Shown here piece by piece: positions 30,440 to 55,175 of a DNA stretch of 64,000 bases. Both the position numbers and the translations under genes were made by a program. The DNA is from Prochlorococcus sp. scB243_495K23 (lineage in GTDB: Bacteria > Cyanobacteriota > Cyanobacteriia > PCC-6307 > Cyanobiaceae): positions 1 to 64,000 of the forward strand of contig JFLW01000001.1 in NCBI GenBank assembly GCA_000635495.1. Reading direction: 5' to 3'. A model generated the notes under the pieces. That model was not told the origin of the DNA. It was given only the letters and a program-made list of their open reading frames with translations, and searched no databases. Each line of letters opens with the position of its first letter. Position 1 is the first letter of the stretch.

Positions 30440-32215
30440 TTAATAGTGATTAGCAACTTTTCTATGATGAACAGCTGTCTTGCATGATAAGTCAGAAACA
30501 TTACCATTTTCAACAATTCCGTAAATTATCCAATGGTCTGGAGTCTCTAGCCTGGAACTAACTTTACAATCTAAAAAGGCGAGTGAATCTGAAAGAACTG
30601 GTCCTCCTTCAGCGATGTTGCTAATTACATCTACATCTGCAAATCTATCAGCTCCAGGGGCAAATCTTTTTAAAAAATGTCTGAACATTTTTTGATAGTT
30701 ATCTTCTCTCAGAATATTCACAACAAAACCTTTCCCAACTTGCATATATGATTCAATAGCTCTGTCTTTTGCTACTGCAACTGTAATACCTGGTGGAGAA
30801 AAGCTTGCTTGACTAACCCAACTTGCTACCATTGCACTTTGTCTAAATGTAGAACCTTCGCCTTGGCTAGCTGTAACTACATATAATCCACCACTTAATC
30901 TCCCTAACGCTTTATCTAAATTTGAATCAAGGCTCTTCATAGAGGCAATATTCTTCTTTTTATTGATCAATTGACCCAAGTCAGTTCCAGCTTCTTCGAA
31001 TTGTTGATAAACAATGGGATCTGGAATATTTTTAACTCTTAAGGGAGAGAAAGCTTCTTTTTGACCAAGTTCTCTTAATTTATTTGCTAAGGAATCTATA
31101 GGTTCATCATTTCCACCAAATGCATCATAAACTGCAGTAAATTGTTTTGGTTTTAGTGCTGCAAATAAAGTGCCGAGAGATTCTTTTAATTCATTATCTG
31201 AGTCCACTGGCCATGTGGGAATGACTACTGCTTTTGATTCGGAAATTAAACTTGTTAATTCTTGTGGGTCAGAAGATCTTAAATCAATTAACTGAACCTG
31301 AGCGTCTGCTTTACTTATTCCATGAGATATCGCTTGACTTAGTCGATCACAATAACCATAGTCGCTTATGTAGCAGACTGACACAAAATCATTGCCTTTG
31401 CTTTTATTACTACTCCATTCTAGATATTTTCCTTTCCAAAAATTGACCTGATTATGGAGCAAGGGCCCATGACCAACTGCTATTGTTTTTAATTCAGGTA
31501 GCTTATCTATTCTTTTAATTGCCTGTATAACGCTTCTAGCGTTTGGACCCATAAGGCAATCGTAATAAAAACGGAAATCATCGTATATTTCTTTTTGATC
31601 AGTATCAAAAAATTCGTCAGAACAATAATGGAGTCCAAATGCATCGCACGTATAGAGAACATTTGTGCTGTGATCATACGAAAATATGGTATCTGGCCAA
31701 TGTAAATTTGGCGCACTTATAAATTCGATATTATGTTCTAAACCACTATTAGGATTAGTCCCGAGATTTAAAAACTCTCCACTCTTAATCTCTAAACGTT
31801 TAAACGGAATATGTATTTGGTCTTCAATAAATTTAAGTGCTAATTTTGATCCAACTACTGTGATGTTTTGGTTTAATTCTAAAAGATTACCTATTAAACC
31901 AGAATGATCAGGTTCTGTATGGCTAGTAATTAGATAATCAACTTCTTGCGGATTTACCTTTTTCAGTAATTCTTCAAACCATAATTCTTCGAACTTTGCG
32001 TGACTAGTATCAATAATTGCTAGTTTCTCGCCTTTAATAATAAAACTATTGTAAGTAGTTCCATTTCTTAAACCAAATTCAATATCAAATCTACTACGAT
32101 CCCAATCCAAAGATCTTATGGCACAAGAATCATCAGCAAAGTTTTGAGATTGCACCGTCAACTTGTTATTAGTTTGTGCCAATTTAGAATTACTTGTCTG
32201 GGCAGAGGCTATCAT
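30440..32215 (-). CDS. flv3: Flavodiiron protein, Flv3 type (intact diiron site)
   Basis: The 591-residue partner of Flv1. Diiron ligands are complete: H99, E101, D103, H104 (SHTEPDHSG), H172 (NLHWPDT), D191 (CDAFG) and H249 (GHGP). These are followed by a flavodoxin domain (VCYISDYGYCDRLSQAISHGI) and the C-terminal flavin reductase domain (ASWVSQASFSPPGITVAVAKDRAIES). Retained ligands identify it as the Flv3-type subunit. It is first in the minus-strand unit with flv1 and the FMN reductase gene. It acts as an electron sink from photosystem I to O2. Confidence 0.92.
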   Translation of the reverse strand: MIASAQTSNSKLAQTNNKLTVQSQNFADDSCAIRSLDWDRSRFDIEFGLRNGTTYNSFIIKGEKLAIIDTSHAKFEELWFEELLKKVNPQEVDYLITSHTEPDHSGLIGNLLELNQNITVVGSKLALKFIEDQIHIPFKRLEIKSGEFLNLGTNPNSGLEHNIEFISAPNLHWPDTIFSYDHSTNVLYTCDAFGLHYCSDEFFDTDQKEIYDDFRFYYDCLMGPNARSVIQAIKRIDKLPELKTIAVGHGPLLHNQVNFWKGKYLEWSSNKSKGNDFVSVCYISDYGYCDRLSQAISHGISKADAQVQLIDLRSSDPQELTSLISESKAVVIPTWPVDSDNELKESLGTLFAALKPKQFTAVYDAFGGNDEPIDSLANKLRELGQKEAFSPLRVKNIPDPIVYQQFEEAGTDLGQLINKKKNIASMKSLDSNLDKALGRLSGGLYVVTASQGEGSTFRQSAMVASWVSQASFSPPGITVAVAKDRAIESYMQVGKGFVVNILREDNYQKMFRHFLKRFAPGADRFADVDVISNIAEGGPVLSDSLAFLDCKVSSRLETPDHWIIYGIVENGNVSDLSCKTAVHHRKVANHY

Positions 32216-40869: not shown

Positions 40870-42108
40870 TTGAGCCAGTTAGATTCCAATTGGTCGTTTG
40901 TTGATGACAGTAAGGTAACACCTAAGGGGTTTCTTTTTGCTGGGATATCTGCTGGTTTAAAAGCTTCTAATAAAAAGGATTTAGCACTAATACTTGCTCC
41001 AGAAGGCAGTGTTTTTAGTGGGATGTTTACCCAATCAATAGTTCGAGCTTGTTGTGTGGATATTTGTGAGGAAAGGATTAAAACAACTTCAGGTTTTGTA
41101 AGAGCAATACTAATTAATTCTGGTCAAGCAAATGCCTGTACAGGAAATCTTGGCATTCAACATTTTAAAATTGCTACAGGAAAGATTGCGGAACTTTTAT
41201 CAATAAAAGAAGAAGAAGTTTTAATGTGCTCAACTGGTGTAATTGGTGTTCCAATACCAATAAATGATTTAGTAAAAAATTTACCGAATTTAGTTAGTGA
41301 TTTAAAGGGTAATAATTTTGAAAATGCAGCAGAAGCAATTTTAACTACTGATTTGACTTTGAAAAAAGTGTCAATAGAGACGATTATTCAAGGTAGAAAA
41401 ATAAAAATAGCAGGATTTGCAAAAGGTTCAGGAATGATTTACCCCAATATGGCTACAATGCTTGCTTTTCTAACCTGTGATGCAGGTATTCAAAAAGAAG
41501 AATGGGACAAAATGATTGCTATTGCGGTGCAAAAATCTTTTAATGCAATATCAGTTGATGGAGAGACAAGCACAAATGATTCTTTTGTTGGAATAAATAC
41601 AGGAGATAAAATTGAAAAAAGGTTTTTCCCAATCATCCAACAAGGGATTGATATTGTATGTCAGAACTTGGCAAAAAATATTGCAAGGGATGGAGAGGGA
41701 GCAAATTGTTTATTAGAAGTTTTGGTTCAAGGAGCAAAAAATACAGATGATGCAATTATGCTCGCGAAATCTATTTGTAATTCTGCTTTGGTAAAAACTG
41801 CGATACATGGTTGTGATCCAAATTGGGGACGAATCATTTCTGCTGCAGGTAATTCTGGAGTTAAATTTAATTTAAATGACGTTGACTTGTATATAGGAAA
41901 CGCCCACATTTTGGAAAAAGGCCAGTTAAATAAATATGATCCACAAAAAGTCACAGACTATATTAAGTCCAGAATGAAAGGTAGATATTTGGTAGATGAT
42001 ATTGTAAAAATTATGATTAATCTAAATTCTGGAGAATCGAAAGGCACAGCTTGGGGGTGCGATCTTTCTAAAAAATATGTTGAAATAAATAGTGAATATA
42101 CGACGTAG
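40870..42108 (+). CDS. argJ: Bifunctional glutamate N-acetyltransferase ArgJ
   Basis: Ornithine acetyltransferase/N-acetylglutamate synthase of the cyclic arginine pathway, autocleaved into two chains before T196 in NMATMLAF. The 412 residues include NSGQANACTG, STGVIGVPIP, VSVDGETSTNDS-type ISVDGETSTNDS, ARDGEGANCLLEV and CDPNWGRII. The start is TTG at 40870. The C-terminal codons YVEINSEYTT are intact, but a second diverged copy of VEINSEYTT plus stop occurs 1,679 bp downstream, suggesting that an insertion has replaced the original 3' end. Confidence 0.96.
   Translation: MSQLDSNWSFVDDSKVTPKGFLFAGISAGLKASNKKDLALILAPEGSVFSGMFTQSIVRACCVDICEERIKTTSGFVRAILINSGQANACTGNLGIQHFKIATGKIAELLSIKEEEVLMCSTGVIGVPIPINDLVKNLPNLVSDLKGNNFENAAEAILTTDLTLKKVSIETIIQGRKIKIAGFAKGSGMIYPNMATMLAFLTCDAGIQKEEWDKMIAIAVQKSFNAISVDGETSTNDSFVGINTGDKIEKRFFPIIQQGIDIVCQNLAKNIARDGEGANCLLEVLVQGAKNTDDAIMLAKSICNSALVKTAIHGCDPNWGRIISAAGNSGVKFNLNDVDLYIGNAHILEKGQLNKYDPQKVTDYIKSRMKGRYLVDDIVKIMINLNSGESKGTAWGCDLSKKYVEINSEYTT
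42082..42108 (+). repeat. Left copy of argJ 3'-end direct repeat (att-like)
   Basis: The last codons of argJ (EINSEYTT and stop). Its first 20 bases match 43761-43780 at 18 of 20 positions. With the preceding valine codon, both copies encode VEINSEYTT, and all six codon differences (including TAG/TGA) are synonymous. The pair brackets the YadA-like gene at a spacing of 1,679 bp. Confidence 0.8.
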
Positions 42109-42169
42109 TTTTTGTGATTTCTGGCATCGCTTAATATGACAATAAAAAATCTCTAAAAGAATACACACC

Positions 42170-42203
42170 TTTTGCGACTGTGATAATACTGTGATTATTA
42201 TTT
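42170..42203 (+). repeat. Left iteron-like block
   Basis: Contains two GTGAT(A/T)AT units at 42180 and 42191, 11 bp apart, within a stretch that aligns with 43663-43697 at about 30 of 34 positions with one gap. The right side also carries an exact copy of ACTGTGATTATTATTT. It lies between the argJ stop and the convergent YadA-like gene end. Confidence 0.75.
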
Positions 42204-42211
42204 CTACTCAA

Positions 42212-43393
42212 TTATGGCAATTTTATAGTCGCTAAATCTTTTGATCCGACTTTACCTAATGCTACTTTTTCAAGTCTCTCTAATCTTGCTAAAAGTTCTT
42301 GGTTCTTTTCTTCAAGTGAGACAATTTTCGTTTGGAATTCTTTTTCTTTCATACTTATAAGTTCTGAATTTACTGGTTTTCCTAATTTCCAAACAAATCC
42401 TGCTCTTGCAGAGAAAGTATCTTCGAAATCACCAGCATAATCTTGACCTGGAATAGTCATAGATGCCGCATAGTTAATTGATAATTTATTATTGACTTTA
42501 GAAGCGCACCCACCTGATAATGCAAAATTTCCTCCGTGAGTTCCACTTCCTAAACCGCAAGCAAGAGTTGTATCTGTAGGAACTGTTGGTAATCCAGTTA
42601 AAGCAGCACTTAATGCTCCTACATTATTAATTGATTGCTCTACATCTCTTCCATTAATCAGTAATTTAGTTCCGTTAGTGTAATCGATTGGAATTGGGTT
42701 ACCTGCAGCATCTTTTGCATATACTTTCTGCCTCCCATTTTCTTCTTTTGTAATCCATGAGTTTTGTCCAATATGTAATTCATCTCCAACATATTTAACT
42801 AAACTTTTTCCGGAAGTTCCTCCAGTGCTTATTCCATTTGCATCAACTTTCATTAATTCGTCCGTGCCAGTTCCTCCAAGCGTTATTTCATTTGAATTTG
42901 CGTTACAAGTAGTTCCATTATCAGATTCACACTGTTTATTAATTTGATCTTTTGTAGCAGTAGGCATAGTAACGAATATAGGCATTGCTCCATCTGGCAT
43001 TCCAGTAATAGTTATCCAATCATCTGCTAGAGTTTCTGTTTTAATATCAAAGACTCTTGCCCGTAATGGAAGGTCGCCACCCCTAGGCGGTTCTCTAAAG
43101 TAAATCTTTCCTTCAGCAGAATCTATTGCATATTGATCTGCACTAAAAGTTCCTGGTCCTCCATCTGGGTAAAGATTTTCAACTACTAATGATGCTGCAC
43201 CAGTGCTATCAATTTTATAAATATTGATTTGGGAACCCCCACCACTAATTGTTTTAGTTGGATCTTCTGCAACTGCATATGAAAATGCTCTCGTAATAGT
43301 GTCGATTGTATCTGCTTTTGTTGAGGTAAAAGGTGAGAAAATTATAGATGATGCAATAAAAGTATGAAAAAGATTTTTTGTTAATTTCTTCAT
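42212..43393 (-). CDS. Secreted protein with YadA-like anchor region and C-terminal coiled coil
   Basis: A 393-residue protein not recognised as a standard cyanobacterial gene. Signal peptide at about 1-27 (basic start, then hydrophobic FIASSIIFSPF, ending TKA). The middle is Gly/Thr/Asp-rich with few charged helices. Residues about 250-338 (NNVGALSAALTGLP, then GLGSGTHGGNFALSGGCASK, NNKLSINYAASM and FSARAGFVWKLGK) resemble the YadA-type membrane anchor of trimeric autotransporters. Unlike those, which end at the barrel, it continues with a heptad-like coiled coil (about 345-378, MKEKEFQTKIVSLEEKNQEL). Base composition looks less AT-rich than its neighbours. It is the only complete gene between the two argJ 3' ends. 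A role in surface display, adhesion or phage interaction is inference. Confidence 0.7.
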   Translation of the reverse strand: MKKLTKNLFHTFIASSIIFSPFTSTKADTIDTITRAFSYAVAEDPTKTISGGGSQINIYKIDSTGAASLVVENLYPDGGPGTFSADQYAIDSAEGKIYFREPPRGGDLPLRARVFDIKTETLADDWITITGMPDGAMPIFVTMPTATKDQINKQCESDNGTTCNANSNEITLGGTGTDELMKVDANGISTGGTSGKSLVKYVGDELHIGQNSWITKEENGRQKVYAKDAAGNPIPIDYTNGTKLLINGRDVEQSINNVGALSAALTGLPTVPTDTTLACGLGSGTHGGNFALSGGCASKVNNKLSINYAASMTIPGQDYAGDFEDTFSARAGFVWKLGKPVNSELISMKEKEFQTKIVSLEEKNQELLARLERLEKVALGKVGSKDLATIKLP

Positions 43394-43560
43394 TTTAAAA
43401 AAGTTTTATTCAAAGGATCATATGAAAATACTTGTATTAGTAAGTATATTTACTTACAAAATTCTAAAAATCTTAATTATTTGTTGCTTTATCTAGGAAA
43501 AAAGTAGAAGGTAATTTTTATCTCCCCTCTCAATGCTGAATACTCACCATTTGTAGAAAT

Positions 43561-43604
43561 GTGATTATTCTGTGATTATTCTGTGATTACGTATAAGATC
43601 ACAG
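43561..43604 (+). repeat. Tandem 11-bp direct repeat with an inverted copy
   Basis: GTGATTATTCT is repeated twice and a half (starts 43561, 43572, 43583). The third copy forms one arm of a dyad: CTGTGAT at 43581-43587 and ATCACAG at 43598-43604, a perfect 7-bp inverted repeat separated by 10 bp. Spacing of one helical turn suggests cooperative protein binding. The arm TGTGA recalls CRP-family sites, but the half-site spacing (12 bp instead of 6) does not fit. Confidence 0.75.
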
Positions 43605-43649
43605 AAATTAATCCTAATAATTTCAATGGTTTTTATATAAAAGTTAAAA

Positions 43650-43697
43650 ACTGTGATTATTATTTTGCCGACTGTGATTATGGTGTGATTATTTTTT
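43650..43697 (+). repeat. Right iteron-like block
   Basis: GTGATTAT units begin at 43653, 43674 and 43685 (spacings 21 and 11). The stretch 43663-43697 aligns with 42170-42203 at the other end of the segment, in the same orientation. Confidence 0.75.
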
Positions 43698-43757
43698 CGA
43701 AAACTGCTTTAGTGATAGCAATGGATTACAGCAAGGTGTATATACTATTTGCCCTAG

Positions 43758-43787
43758 GTAGAAATTAATAGCGAATATACTACTTGA
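43758..43787 (+). pseudogene. Remnant of a second argJ 3' end (right att-like repeat)
   Basis: Reads VEINSEYTT and stop (TGA) in one frame, the same residues as the argJ C-terminus, with synonymous substitutions in gtt/gta, ata/att, agt/agc and acg/act (twice). Immediately upstream the reading frame is closed (TAG at 43755), so no larger argJ fragment remains. It overlaps the last codons of the minus-strand small membrane protein gene, which suggests the original argJ ended here, convergently overlapping that gene, before the insertion. High confidence in the match, moderate in the interpretation. Confidence 0.75.
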
Positions 43788-44022
43788 GTTTTAGTAAATC
43801 TAATGGTAGATATTCATTAATATAGAGAAACAGTATTGTTAAAGTTCCAATTACAGAGCCTATAAAACCTCCAAAAAAATTAACTAATAATCCAGATTGT
43901 CTAATTATTGCTTCTTCTTTTTTTTCTTCTTCAAAATTAGGAGAATCAACTACTTTTAAGCGCTTATTGGTTGTTGGTTGTTTAAGTTGTTGGTGTCGGA
44001 TGAGGGCTTCGAAATCAGGCAT
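43780..44022 (-). CDS. Small single-span membrane protein overlapping parA-like gene
   Basis: From M at 44022 the product has 80 residues, MPDFEALIRHQQLKQPTTNK onwards; an alternative start at 44046 adds 8. A soluble, charged N-terminal half (SPNFEEEKKEEAIIRQ) is followed by one hydrophobic helix (LLVNFFGGFIGSVIGTLTILFLYI) and a short tail. Its 5' end overlaps the 3' end of the ParA-like gene by about 67 bp in another frame, so expression is probably coupled. It could be a membrane anchor or partner for the ATPase. Function unknown. Confidence 0.6.
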   Translation of the reverse strand: MPDFEALIRHQQLKQPTTNKRLKVVDSPNFEEEKKEEAIIRQSGLLVNFFGGFIGSVIGTLTILFLYINEYLPLDLLKLK

Positions 44023-44627
44023 GGAATTTGTGAGGCAATTGAACAATAAGCAGACCAGCCCGTCATTCGACGAGGATCTGATCTGCCTAAATCGTCTACA
44101 GCTTCAAATACAGCATTGCCGGAGGCTTCTGCTTTATCAAATGCTGAGAGTAAGGGTATAAATGTATCAAAAACATATAAACCAAAATTTTCTAGAGCTG
44201 CTTTAGCTTGTTGCGCTGCTTTTTGCTGTCTAAAATCAACTTTTACTATTACTACAGCATGGTTAACTTTTAAGTTGCTTAGTAAATTAGCTAGTTCAGC
44301 AGTTAATTCTACTGATCTTGCTTTTGCAGTTGTAGGTAAGATAACTAAATCTGAACCATACGCTAAGTGTTTAAGTTCTTCTTGATCACTGCTAGCTTGG
44401 CCATCAGTTATTACAATTTCTGATGATCTTGATGCTTTAGCAGCTGAATTGACGGGGAAAACTGGAAATGGAAGATTGCCTCTTGATGCGTATGCTAAAG
44501 CAGATCTATTCTTGTCGGCATCGACTATGCAAACTTTTTTACCTTTAGAATGCCAAACACTTGCAAGGTGAATACTTGTACAGGTCTTGGCCACCCCCCC
44601 TTTTTGTCCGCAAACGGTAATGAACAA
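43956..44627 (-). CDS. ParA/MinD-like P-loop ATPase (orphan)
   Basis: A 223-residue ATPase with the deviant Walker A motif GQKGGVAKTCTSIHLA (K-G-G-x-A-K-T), IVDADKNRSALAYA (switch/Asp), IVITDGQASS and LVILPTTAKARSVELTAELANLL. Small size and the absence of a ParB or DNA-binding gene nearby point to an orphan ParA-like protein rather than a classic chromosome partition system. The overlapping downstream membrane protein gene could supply localisation. The tail (after about 200) is Asn/Ser/Pro-rich. Confidence 0.88.
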   Translation of the reverse strand: MFITVCGQKGGVAKTCTSIHLASVWHSKGKKVCIVDADKNRSALAYASRGNLPFPVFPVNSAAKASRSSEIVITDGQASSDQEELKHLAYGSDLVILPTTAKARSVELTAELANLLSNLKVNHAVVIVKVDFRQQKAAQQAKAALENFGLYVFDTFIPLLSAFDKAEASGNAVFEAVDDLGRSDPRRMTGWSAYCSIASQIPCLISKPSSDTNNLNNQQPISA

Positions 44628-45886: not shown

Positions 45887-46041
45887 TTTGCAAGATTGGA
45901 TTTCTTAATAAGATAAATTAATTTAAAACTTATCTTCTCAGTATTTATACTTATAAAATTAAAAAAATTCTTTTTAATACAAGTAATTGCAGCAATATTT
46001 ACACACTCATAAATTATCTACTACAACTCCTTAGTTATTTA

Positions 46042-55151: not shown

Positions 55152-55175
55152 TGCAGTTAAACCAGAATACATAAA

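Follow-up and report, generated by a model that had tools for sequence, protein, structure and literature searches.

A site at the 3' end of argJ in Prochlorococcus occupied by small gene cassettes, mostly without an integrase of their own

In a stretch of 64,000 nucleotides from Prochlorococcus sp. scB243_495K23 (contig JFLW01000001.1, positions 1 to 64,000; hereafter the window), the end of the arginine gene argJ is found twice, which raises the question of how a core metabolic gene came to have a second 3' end, and what lies between the two. The argJ tail VEINSEYTT and its stop codon are located at 42079-42108 and again at 43758-43787, on the same strand and offset by 1,679 bp, and all six differences between the copies are synonymous or between stop codons. 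The right copy overlaps the end of the minus-strand ORF 43780-44046. The repetition is more than chance, since the degenerate tail pattern AAYWSNGARTAYACNACNTR matches 226 of 266 same-genus genomes and its reversed control matches none. The initial annotation read this arrangement as site-specific integration at the 3' end of a coding gene rather than a tRNA gene, by what could be a non-autonomous cargo element, no integrase being seen inside, with the left copy brought in by the insert and the right copy being the original 3' end. The comparison with related genomes supports that reading, with one refinement. The V-E-I part of the right copy (GTAGAAATT) is not displaced argJ, but the conserved right end of this class of elements (consensus GTgGAAATT), and other classes have for example GTTTTTATC, ATATGTATC or ATAGAAATG at that place. 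The part shared by element and target is a 14-bp core, AATAGYGAATATAC. The locus is composed of the following features.

40870..42108 (+), argJ, the target gene, whose last 7 nt are supplied by the element (PF01960, E 8.5e-130)
42088..42101 (+), left core copy (attL core), AATAGTGAATATAC
42102..42108 (+), element-borne argJ cap GACGTAG (Thr-Thr-stop)
42109..42207 (+), conserved left end of the class-A element
42179..42198 (+), two arm-type direct repeats, TGTGATAAT and TGTGATTAT, 11 bp apart
42212..43393 (-), cargo gene for a 393-aa protein with a YadA-anchor-like region
43528..43766 (+), conserved right end of the class-A element, up to the core
43560..43590 (+), three arm-type direct repeats (TGTGATTAT, TGTGATTAT, TGTGATTAC) with a period of 11
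43652..43692 (+), three more arm-type repeats TGTGATTAT (43652, 43673, 43684)
43767..43780 (+), right core copy (attR core), AATAGCGAATATAC
43781..43787 (+), displaced chromosomal argJ 3' end TACTTGA
43780..44046 (-), small convergent ORF of the right flank, whose stop lies in the displaced argJ end and which overlaps the argJ end in empty alleles
43956..44627 (-), ParA-like ATPase (PF01656) of the chromosomal right flank, whose end is 169-175 bp from the argJ stop in empty alleles

Empty sites exist in relatives, and many different inserts occupy the same point. Empty and filled alleles were found in 25 and 29 of 54 genomes (the window's own included) and in 37 and 37 of 74 named loci with both flanks, six of 80 named loci being without a right flank. 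As 31 of the 80 named loci are genomes of the other collection, the two sets were merged, which gave 106 distinct alleles with both flanks read, of which 50 are empty and 56 carry inserts. In 59 filled genomes 104 elements were delimited, one to four per genome, with a median size of 1.7 kb, and argJ still ends with EYTT-stop in all 59. Two genomes (G059 and G247; handles of the form G plus number stand for genomes, and a number after the point for an element within one) were left out because the contigs fetched hold no argJ end. Some of the loci were chosen for extra cores or arm pairs, so the 59 filled of 84 is not a frequency. Of the 29 filled genomes of the first set, 11 hold two to four elements in tandem. 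The nearest RNA genes found in the window are a tmRNA at 46024 and a tRNA at 55175.

The crossover is confined to the core by comparison of the flanks. To the left of it argJ is chromosomal, and to the right of it the element supplies the cap. The window flanks match the empty allele of G048 at 97% (1,179 nt, left) and 98% (193 nt, right). The cap is TACTTAA in 48 of 50 distinct empty alleles, and the right-most copies of filled sites are TACTTAA or TACTTGA in 49 of 55, whereas the cap is GACGTAG in 21 of 24 elements of the left-end class to which the window element belongs. Core calling allowed 2 mismatches in 21 positions (7 at the expected right end), so that some cores may be spurious or missed, and the count of 102 of 104 caps reading NACNTRR is biased by that pattern.

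The elements fall into classes with matched ends. In 77 of the 104 elements both ends could be classed, and these gave 361 concordant pairs, against a mean of 122 and a maximum of 182 in 2,000 shuffles; left class l1 has right class r0 in 22 of 24. The remaining 27 elements have at least one end in no class and were left out of this test, and some elements have mixed end classes, pointing to deletion or homologous recombination. In 20 elements of the window's class (class A) the ends (141 nt from the core on at the left, 253 nt ending with the core at the right) are on average 85% identical, but the interiors only 36%. Repeated motifs that look like integrase arm sites are present at both ends. 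In the window the motif occurs 7 times against 1.01 expected, with 6 of the occurrences in this element, and two copies are present in the left end of 18 of 20 class-A elements and one in the other 2. Among 96 elements of 600 bp or more, 44 have an 8-mer at least four times over both ends, against a mean of 0.1 in randomised ends and 9.6 when right ends were swapped between elements; in 34 of the 96, however, no repeat shared by both ends was found even at three copies. The repeat motifs differ between classes (at least eight kinds; TGTGATTAT in the window's class, GTGTGATTT being another such repeat).

The cargo of the window element scores 20.3 bits against PF03895 (E 6e-4), below the cut-off of 22.7, and has relatives in other arrays. 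A structure model of the protein was poor (mean pLDDT 54.6); four strands followed by a helix near the C-terminus would fit a YadA anchor, but lie mostly in a low-confidence stretch, and no convincing PDB relative was found. Of the 20 class-A elements, 18 carry the YadA-like gene, while G034.1 and G215.1 carry unrelated ones. The usual cargo in this class is a presumed surface protein with a variable N-terminal part and a conserved YadA-anchor-like C-terminal part. Restriction-modification genes are carried by other classes.

The insert in the window has one ORF of cargo size, which is not a recombinase. Only three of the 104 elements (in G047, G106 and G191) carry a tyrosine recombinase beside the core, and two of these three score below Pfam's cut-off for PF00589; the other 101 show none. 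In G106 such an autonomous element sits directly next to a sister of the window element. No recombinase with TGTGATTAT arms was found. The class-A arm pair occurs in 23 of 266 genomes, and all 23 were read and lie at argJ, although in G247 (a 3.1-kb contig) only the right flank is present. The last 12 of these places were fetched specifically in search of an autonomous class-A element; 11 show the argJ end, and no recombinase was found in these 11 delimited arrays, nor in any other delimited class-A element. Viral carriers were also sought without success by the patterns and queries used. Peptide patterns of the G047 recombinase gave nothing in viral contigs. The core pattern gave 3 viral stretches and the class-A arm pair 10, but none of the 13 holds the 14-bp core or matches the G106 or G047 recombinase, the window cargo or the flank proteins. 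A class-A left-end pattern gave 8 stretches that match none of the 104 elements by blastn, and a right-end pattern gave none. In phage records there was no match for the G106 recombinase, the right end or the window cargo protein.

Some elements are far more alike than the argJ genes of their hosts, which indicates that they travel. The G025.1/G190.1 elements are 93.5% identical versus 77.4% for argJ, G010.1/G162.1 89.5% versus 76.2%, and G032.2/G106.2 86.9% versus 77.2%. However, of 22 element pairs alignable over 80%, 18 had an argJ identity for comparison and only 9 favour transfer, so much of the record also fits vertical descent and decay. G511, in another genus, has an insert at argJ with a different downstream gene.

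The 1.7-kb segment is best explained, with fairly high confidence, as an integrated non-autonomous tyrosine-recombinase element (CIME- or MITE-like). In the inferred mechanism, an element circle carries attP (right end, core, left end), and a tyrosine recombinase binds the repeated arm sites at both ends and the core and recombines attP with the argJ core (attB), which restores argJ. Because the element lacks a recombinase gene, it would be moved in trans by one from a related autonomous element, or in cis when an autonomous neighbour integrates beside it; no circular form or excision was seen, in the absence of read data. Each integration would leave functional cores, so that arrays can grow and shuffle like gene cassettes.

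An alternative that remains possible, though unlikely, is that the elements are scars only: decayed remnants of former integrase-bearing islands (true CIMEs by decay, a scenario described in PMC5704250) that spread today only by homologous exchange through argJ or through shared ends. The rarity of recombinases, the mixed-end composites, the pairs in which the element is no more similar than argJ, and the near-empty remnants (G029.1 and G196.4, 185 bp; G041.1, 154 bp) are in line with this view. Independent decay, however, would not give one class chassis carrying different cargo with the ends preserved; elements 87-94% alike sit in hosts whose argJ is only 76-77% alike, and the element-borne cap is class-specific and differs from the chromosomal one. 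It is more doubtful still that a host-encoded recombinase serves the site in an integron-like manner. A PF00589 protein in a frame of about 389 aa is listed for most of the 101 genomes searched, and is a full-length gene in G000, but there it is on another contig than argJ and nothing links it to the site, while the differing end repeats point to several recombinases. A transposon with a preference for gene ends, perhaps of the Tn7-like or IS605-like kind, is very improbable; insertion at a gene 3' end and subterminal repeats at both ends would fit, but the core is shared with the element, the gene end is restored, no transposase was noticed, and siblings carry a tyrosine recombinase instead. 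Partial duplication of argJ or a chance match, suggested by the two similar copies in one genome, is refuted by the empty alleles, and is also contradicted by the same architecture with many different inserts and by the pattern control.

Several known systems resemble this one in part. Like a CIME (PMC5704250), the window element keeps attL and attR cores, lacks recombinase and transfer genes (no conjugation genes were noticed, without a systematic search), and elements of this kind can sit in tandem with a recombinase-bearing element that uses the same gene end; they differ in their small size, in one chassis carrying many cargos, as in a proliferating family rather than one-off decay, and in arrays of up to four elements across a genus. 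Tycheposons of Prochlorococcus (PMC10872708) are likewise tyrosine-recombinase elements with variable cargo, apparently of 4-200 kb and bordered by a tRNA gene, whereas the target here is a coding gene and the window element has 1.7 kb and no recombinase; G047 (9 kb with recombinase) would fit in size and recombinase. As in integrons, small units with exchangeable cargo form a tandem array with a site at each junction, next to one anchor site. The G047 and G106 recombinases, the two scanned, do not match the integron integrase model TIGR02249, however, and the GTTRRRY core expected of attC sites was found in the 45 nt up to the end of the right core in 0 of 104 elements; several end classes share one target and cargo orientation varies. 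SGI1 at trmE (PMC8409611), and probably guaA islands and SCC at rlmH, likewise replace and restore a gene end, with tandem arrays known and a displaced copy marking the far end. The elements at argJ are much smaller and mostly without recombinase, and the recombinases found are of the tyrosine type and not, as would be expected of SCC, Ccr large serine recombinases, for which no search was made. No description of the argJ elements was found in the literature searched, which did not include the primary tycheposon paper.

A bolder reading, offered only tentatively, is that argJ in Prochlorococcus is the anchor of an integron-like gene-cassette system without an integron integrase, in which many classes of tiny cassettes, each with its own arm-site code and its own coding cap for argJ, dock in trans at one 14-bp core, stack in arrays, and shuffle surface-protein and restriction genes between clades.

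The cargo suggests that the site diversifies the cell surface and, through other classes, carries restriction-modification genes, which links it to phage interaction, although this link, and phage pressure as the reason, are inference. A fixed dock with cassettes of one or a few genes, filled in about half of the distinct alleles read, makes gain, loss and order of genes in Prochlorococcus directly countable in population data.

The argJ tail occurs twice in the window, as described in the initial annotation, on the same strand and with an offset of 1,679 bp, and all differences between the two copies are synonymous or between stop codons.

42079-42108, argJ-linked copy of the tail
43758-43787, second copy of the tail, same strand
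43780-44046, minus strand, small ORF at the right flank

In empty alleles the small minus-strand ORF and argJ overlap tail to tail, so the shared core sits at the 3' ends of two convergent genes; in the window the insertion separates them and both keep a stop. A pattern coding for the tail matches 226 of 266 genomes of the same genus, and its reversed control matches none. Counted by hand, about 90 of the 266 genomes have two or more exact copies, up to five. In the part of the positions that was inspected, copies of one genome share a contig and strand, with the exception of genome G042. Relative to the window, the 17.6 kb between the guaA and argJ 3' ends appear inverted in G042, with 5.8 kb of other DNA at the argJ breakpoint, and a further core copy lies 21 kb away in opposite orientation. 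In a first set of 54 same-genus genomes whose argJ 3' end could be read, that of the window included, the distance from the argJ stop to the ParA-like gene is 169-175 bp in 25 and larger in 28; in G042 the ParA-like gene was not reached and the site is filled. Inserts range from about 0.15 to 9 kb. Of 80 named Prochlorococcus loci retrieved separately, 74 have both flanks, 37 being empty and 37 filled, and all 80 argJ tails read [VI]EINSEYTT-stop. Merged without repeats, the two sets give 50 empty and 56 filled alleles. The flanks of the window match the empty allele of genome G048 at 97% (left, 1,179 nt) and 98% (right, 193 nt). Right of the shared 14 bp (AATAGYGAATATAC), distinct empty alleles read TACTTAA in 48 of 50, and right-most copies read TACTTAA or TACTTGA in 49 of 55. 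The argJ-linked copies of the 59 filled alleles are diverse (among them 13 GACGTAG, 6 TACATAG and 5 AACTTAG), while all 84 genomes keep EYTT-stop. Left of the core, right copies show element sequence that differs by class. Integration therefore occurs inside the core, and the element brings a seven-base cap that restores Thr-Thr-stop. In the end class of the window the cap is GACGTAG in 21 of 24 elements.

A total of 104 elements were delimited in the 59 filled of 84 genomes, 30 of the 84 having been added because they had extra cores or arm pairs. The median length is 1.70 kb. In the first set, 18 of 29 filled genomes hold one element and 11 hold two to four. Left and right ends cluster, and the clusters pair up: among 77 elements with both ends classed, 361 concordant pairs were found, versus 122 on average and 182 at most in 2,000 shuffles. 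Of 96 elements of 600 bp or more, 62 have an 8-mer at least three times over both ends and 44 at least four times; randomised ends give means of 5.1 and 0.1, and right ends swapped between elements 17.9 and 9.6, respectively. The motifs include TGTGATTAT in the class of the window (class A), GTGTGATTT, TTGCTTAC, TATGACAC, AATAAACCA, TATAACACTA, and TGTTCAC. In the window TGTGATTAT occurs 7 times against 1.01 expected, and 6 of these are in the element. Eleven-base spacing at both ends is what arm sites of tyrosine recombinases look like, although this identification is inferred. In the 20 class-A elements over 900 bp (of 22) the ends are 85% identical and the interiors align at 36%; 18 carry the YadA-like gene, while elements G034.1 and G215.1 carry unrelated genes. 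Two class-A elements of 185 bp (G029.1 and G196.4) consist of little more than ends and are either deletion products or minimal elements.

Among the hits of a search for PF00589 in 101 genomes, one lies in the argJ insert of genome G047, beside the right core, and another in that of genome G106. Searching with the G047 and G106 proteins in 266 genomes confirmed G106 and added genome G191, both next to the left core. A profile of tyrosine recombinases built for this study finds exactly these three in 457 reading frames of the 104 elements at E 0.01. The G047 protein passes the PF00589 cut-off (28.6 against 27.1 bits). The G106 protein passes PF13102 (27.4 against 22.3) but not PF00589 (18.0), and that of G191 is just below PF13102 (21.7) and well below PF00589 (17.2). 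The recombinase-bearing elements of G106 and G191 also carry a small serine recombinase each (PF00239 for G106, recognized by eye for G191), and that of G191 has in addition a ParB-like/methyltransferase-like ORF, named by eye. In G106 the order is argJ, autonomous element with GTGTGATTT repeats, core, a sister of the window element, core, chromosome. No recombinase of the class of the window was found in these searches. The genome of the window has two PF00589 genes elsewhere, a 389-aa gene with counterparts in most of the 101 genomes and a 191-aa gene in a phage- or satellite-like contig (C121), in which a terminase-small-subunit-like and an ATPase-like ORF were also named by eye.

For 18 element pairs alignable over 80% with a comparable argJ, 9 are more similar than argJ and 9 are not; three differ strongly (93.5 versus 77.4, 89.5 versus 76.2, and 86.9 versus 77.2%). 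In genome G511, which belongs to another genus, argJ is followed by an insert whose right end looks by eye like class D, and by a different downstream gene, so the target is argJ and not the neighbourhood. Among 300 genomes drawn from the family (24 of them from this genus), only three outside the genus match the tail pattern at all, although argJ tails differ there and this says little about inserts outside the genus. Of 165 ORFs of 90 aa or more, 49 form the YadA-like group, which was found in 44 of 104 elements and has a conserved C-terminal and a variable N-terminal part. The Pfam match is below the cut-off and the structure model is poor, so that the designation YadA-like is only a lead. 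Other cargo among the proteins scanned includes type II restriction-modification (TdeIII with C5 methylase), another C5 methylase, an Mrr/ResIII/helicase-associated protein, thiamine-binding protein, a DnaB-like helicase domain, trypsin-TPR-PD-(D/E)XK, and DUF4379 zinc fingers. Five scanned element proteins matched no Pfam family (from loci L116, 366 aa; L036, 286 aa; L056, 155 aa; L057, 435 aa; and L109, the G191 locus, 281 aa).

Precise insertion, cap replacement, paired ends, arrays, recombinase-bearing siblings at the same core, and transfer between diverged hosts are all documented by these comparisons. A circle intermediate, arm binding, and action in trans or by accretion in cis are inferred. 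The main alternative, considered unlikely, is that most elements are scars that move only by homologous exchange. The nearest described state is a CIME, in which recombinase and transfer genes are lost, att sites are kept, and tandem accretion occurs (PMC5704250); the element differs by its size, the presence of many cargos on one chassis, and the array system. Tycheposons are described to be tRNA-bordered and 4-200 kb in size (PMC10872708). The cyanophages studied in PMC8776855 integrate at tRNA-Leu. No report whose title or opening abstract lines describe such a system was found in the part of the open-licence PMC literature searched.

Tyrosine-recombinase elements of other genomes break synteny at two more gene 3' ends of the window, both genes being named by eye.

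30440-30463, 3' end of a minus-strand flavodiiron-like gene (30440-32215, ending VANHY-stop)
24532, 3' end of guaA
24601-25314, ORF just behind guaA, weakly Cas4-like

In genomes G054, G141, G264, and G285 synteny with the window breaks at the flavodiiron-like gene end, beside tyrosine recombinases in frames of 505-518 aa, and in G054 a 5.5-kb insert with a duplicated TAATAGTGATT core is resolved. The window is empty at this site. In genomes G027 and G021 synteny breaks right at the guaA stop, beside tyrosine recombinases in frames of 499 and 492 aa and repeated TCACACA motifs. The ORF just behind guaA matches TIGR00372 only weakly (32 bits, cut-off 65) and resembles by eye the PD-(D/E)XK cargo family of argJ arrays, so it may be cargo left at the guaA dock. 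With these two sites, argJ is one of at least three coding-gene docks within 18 kb.
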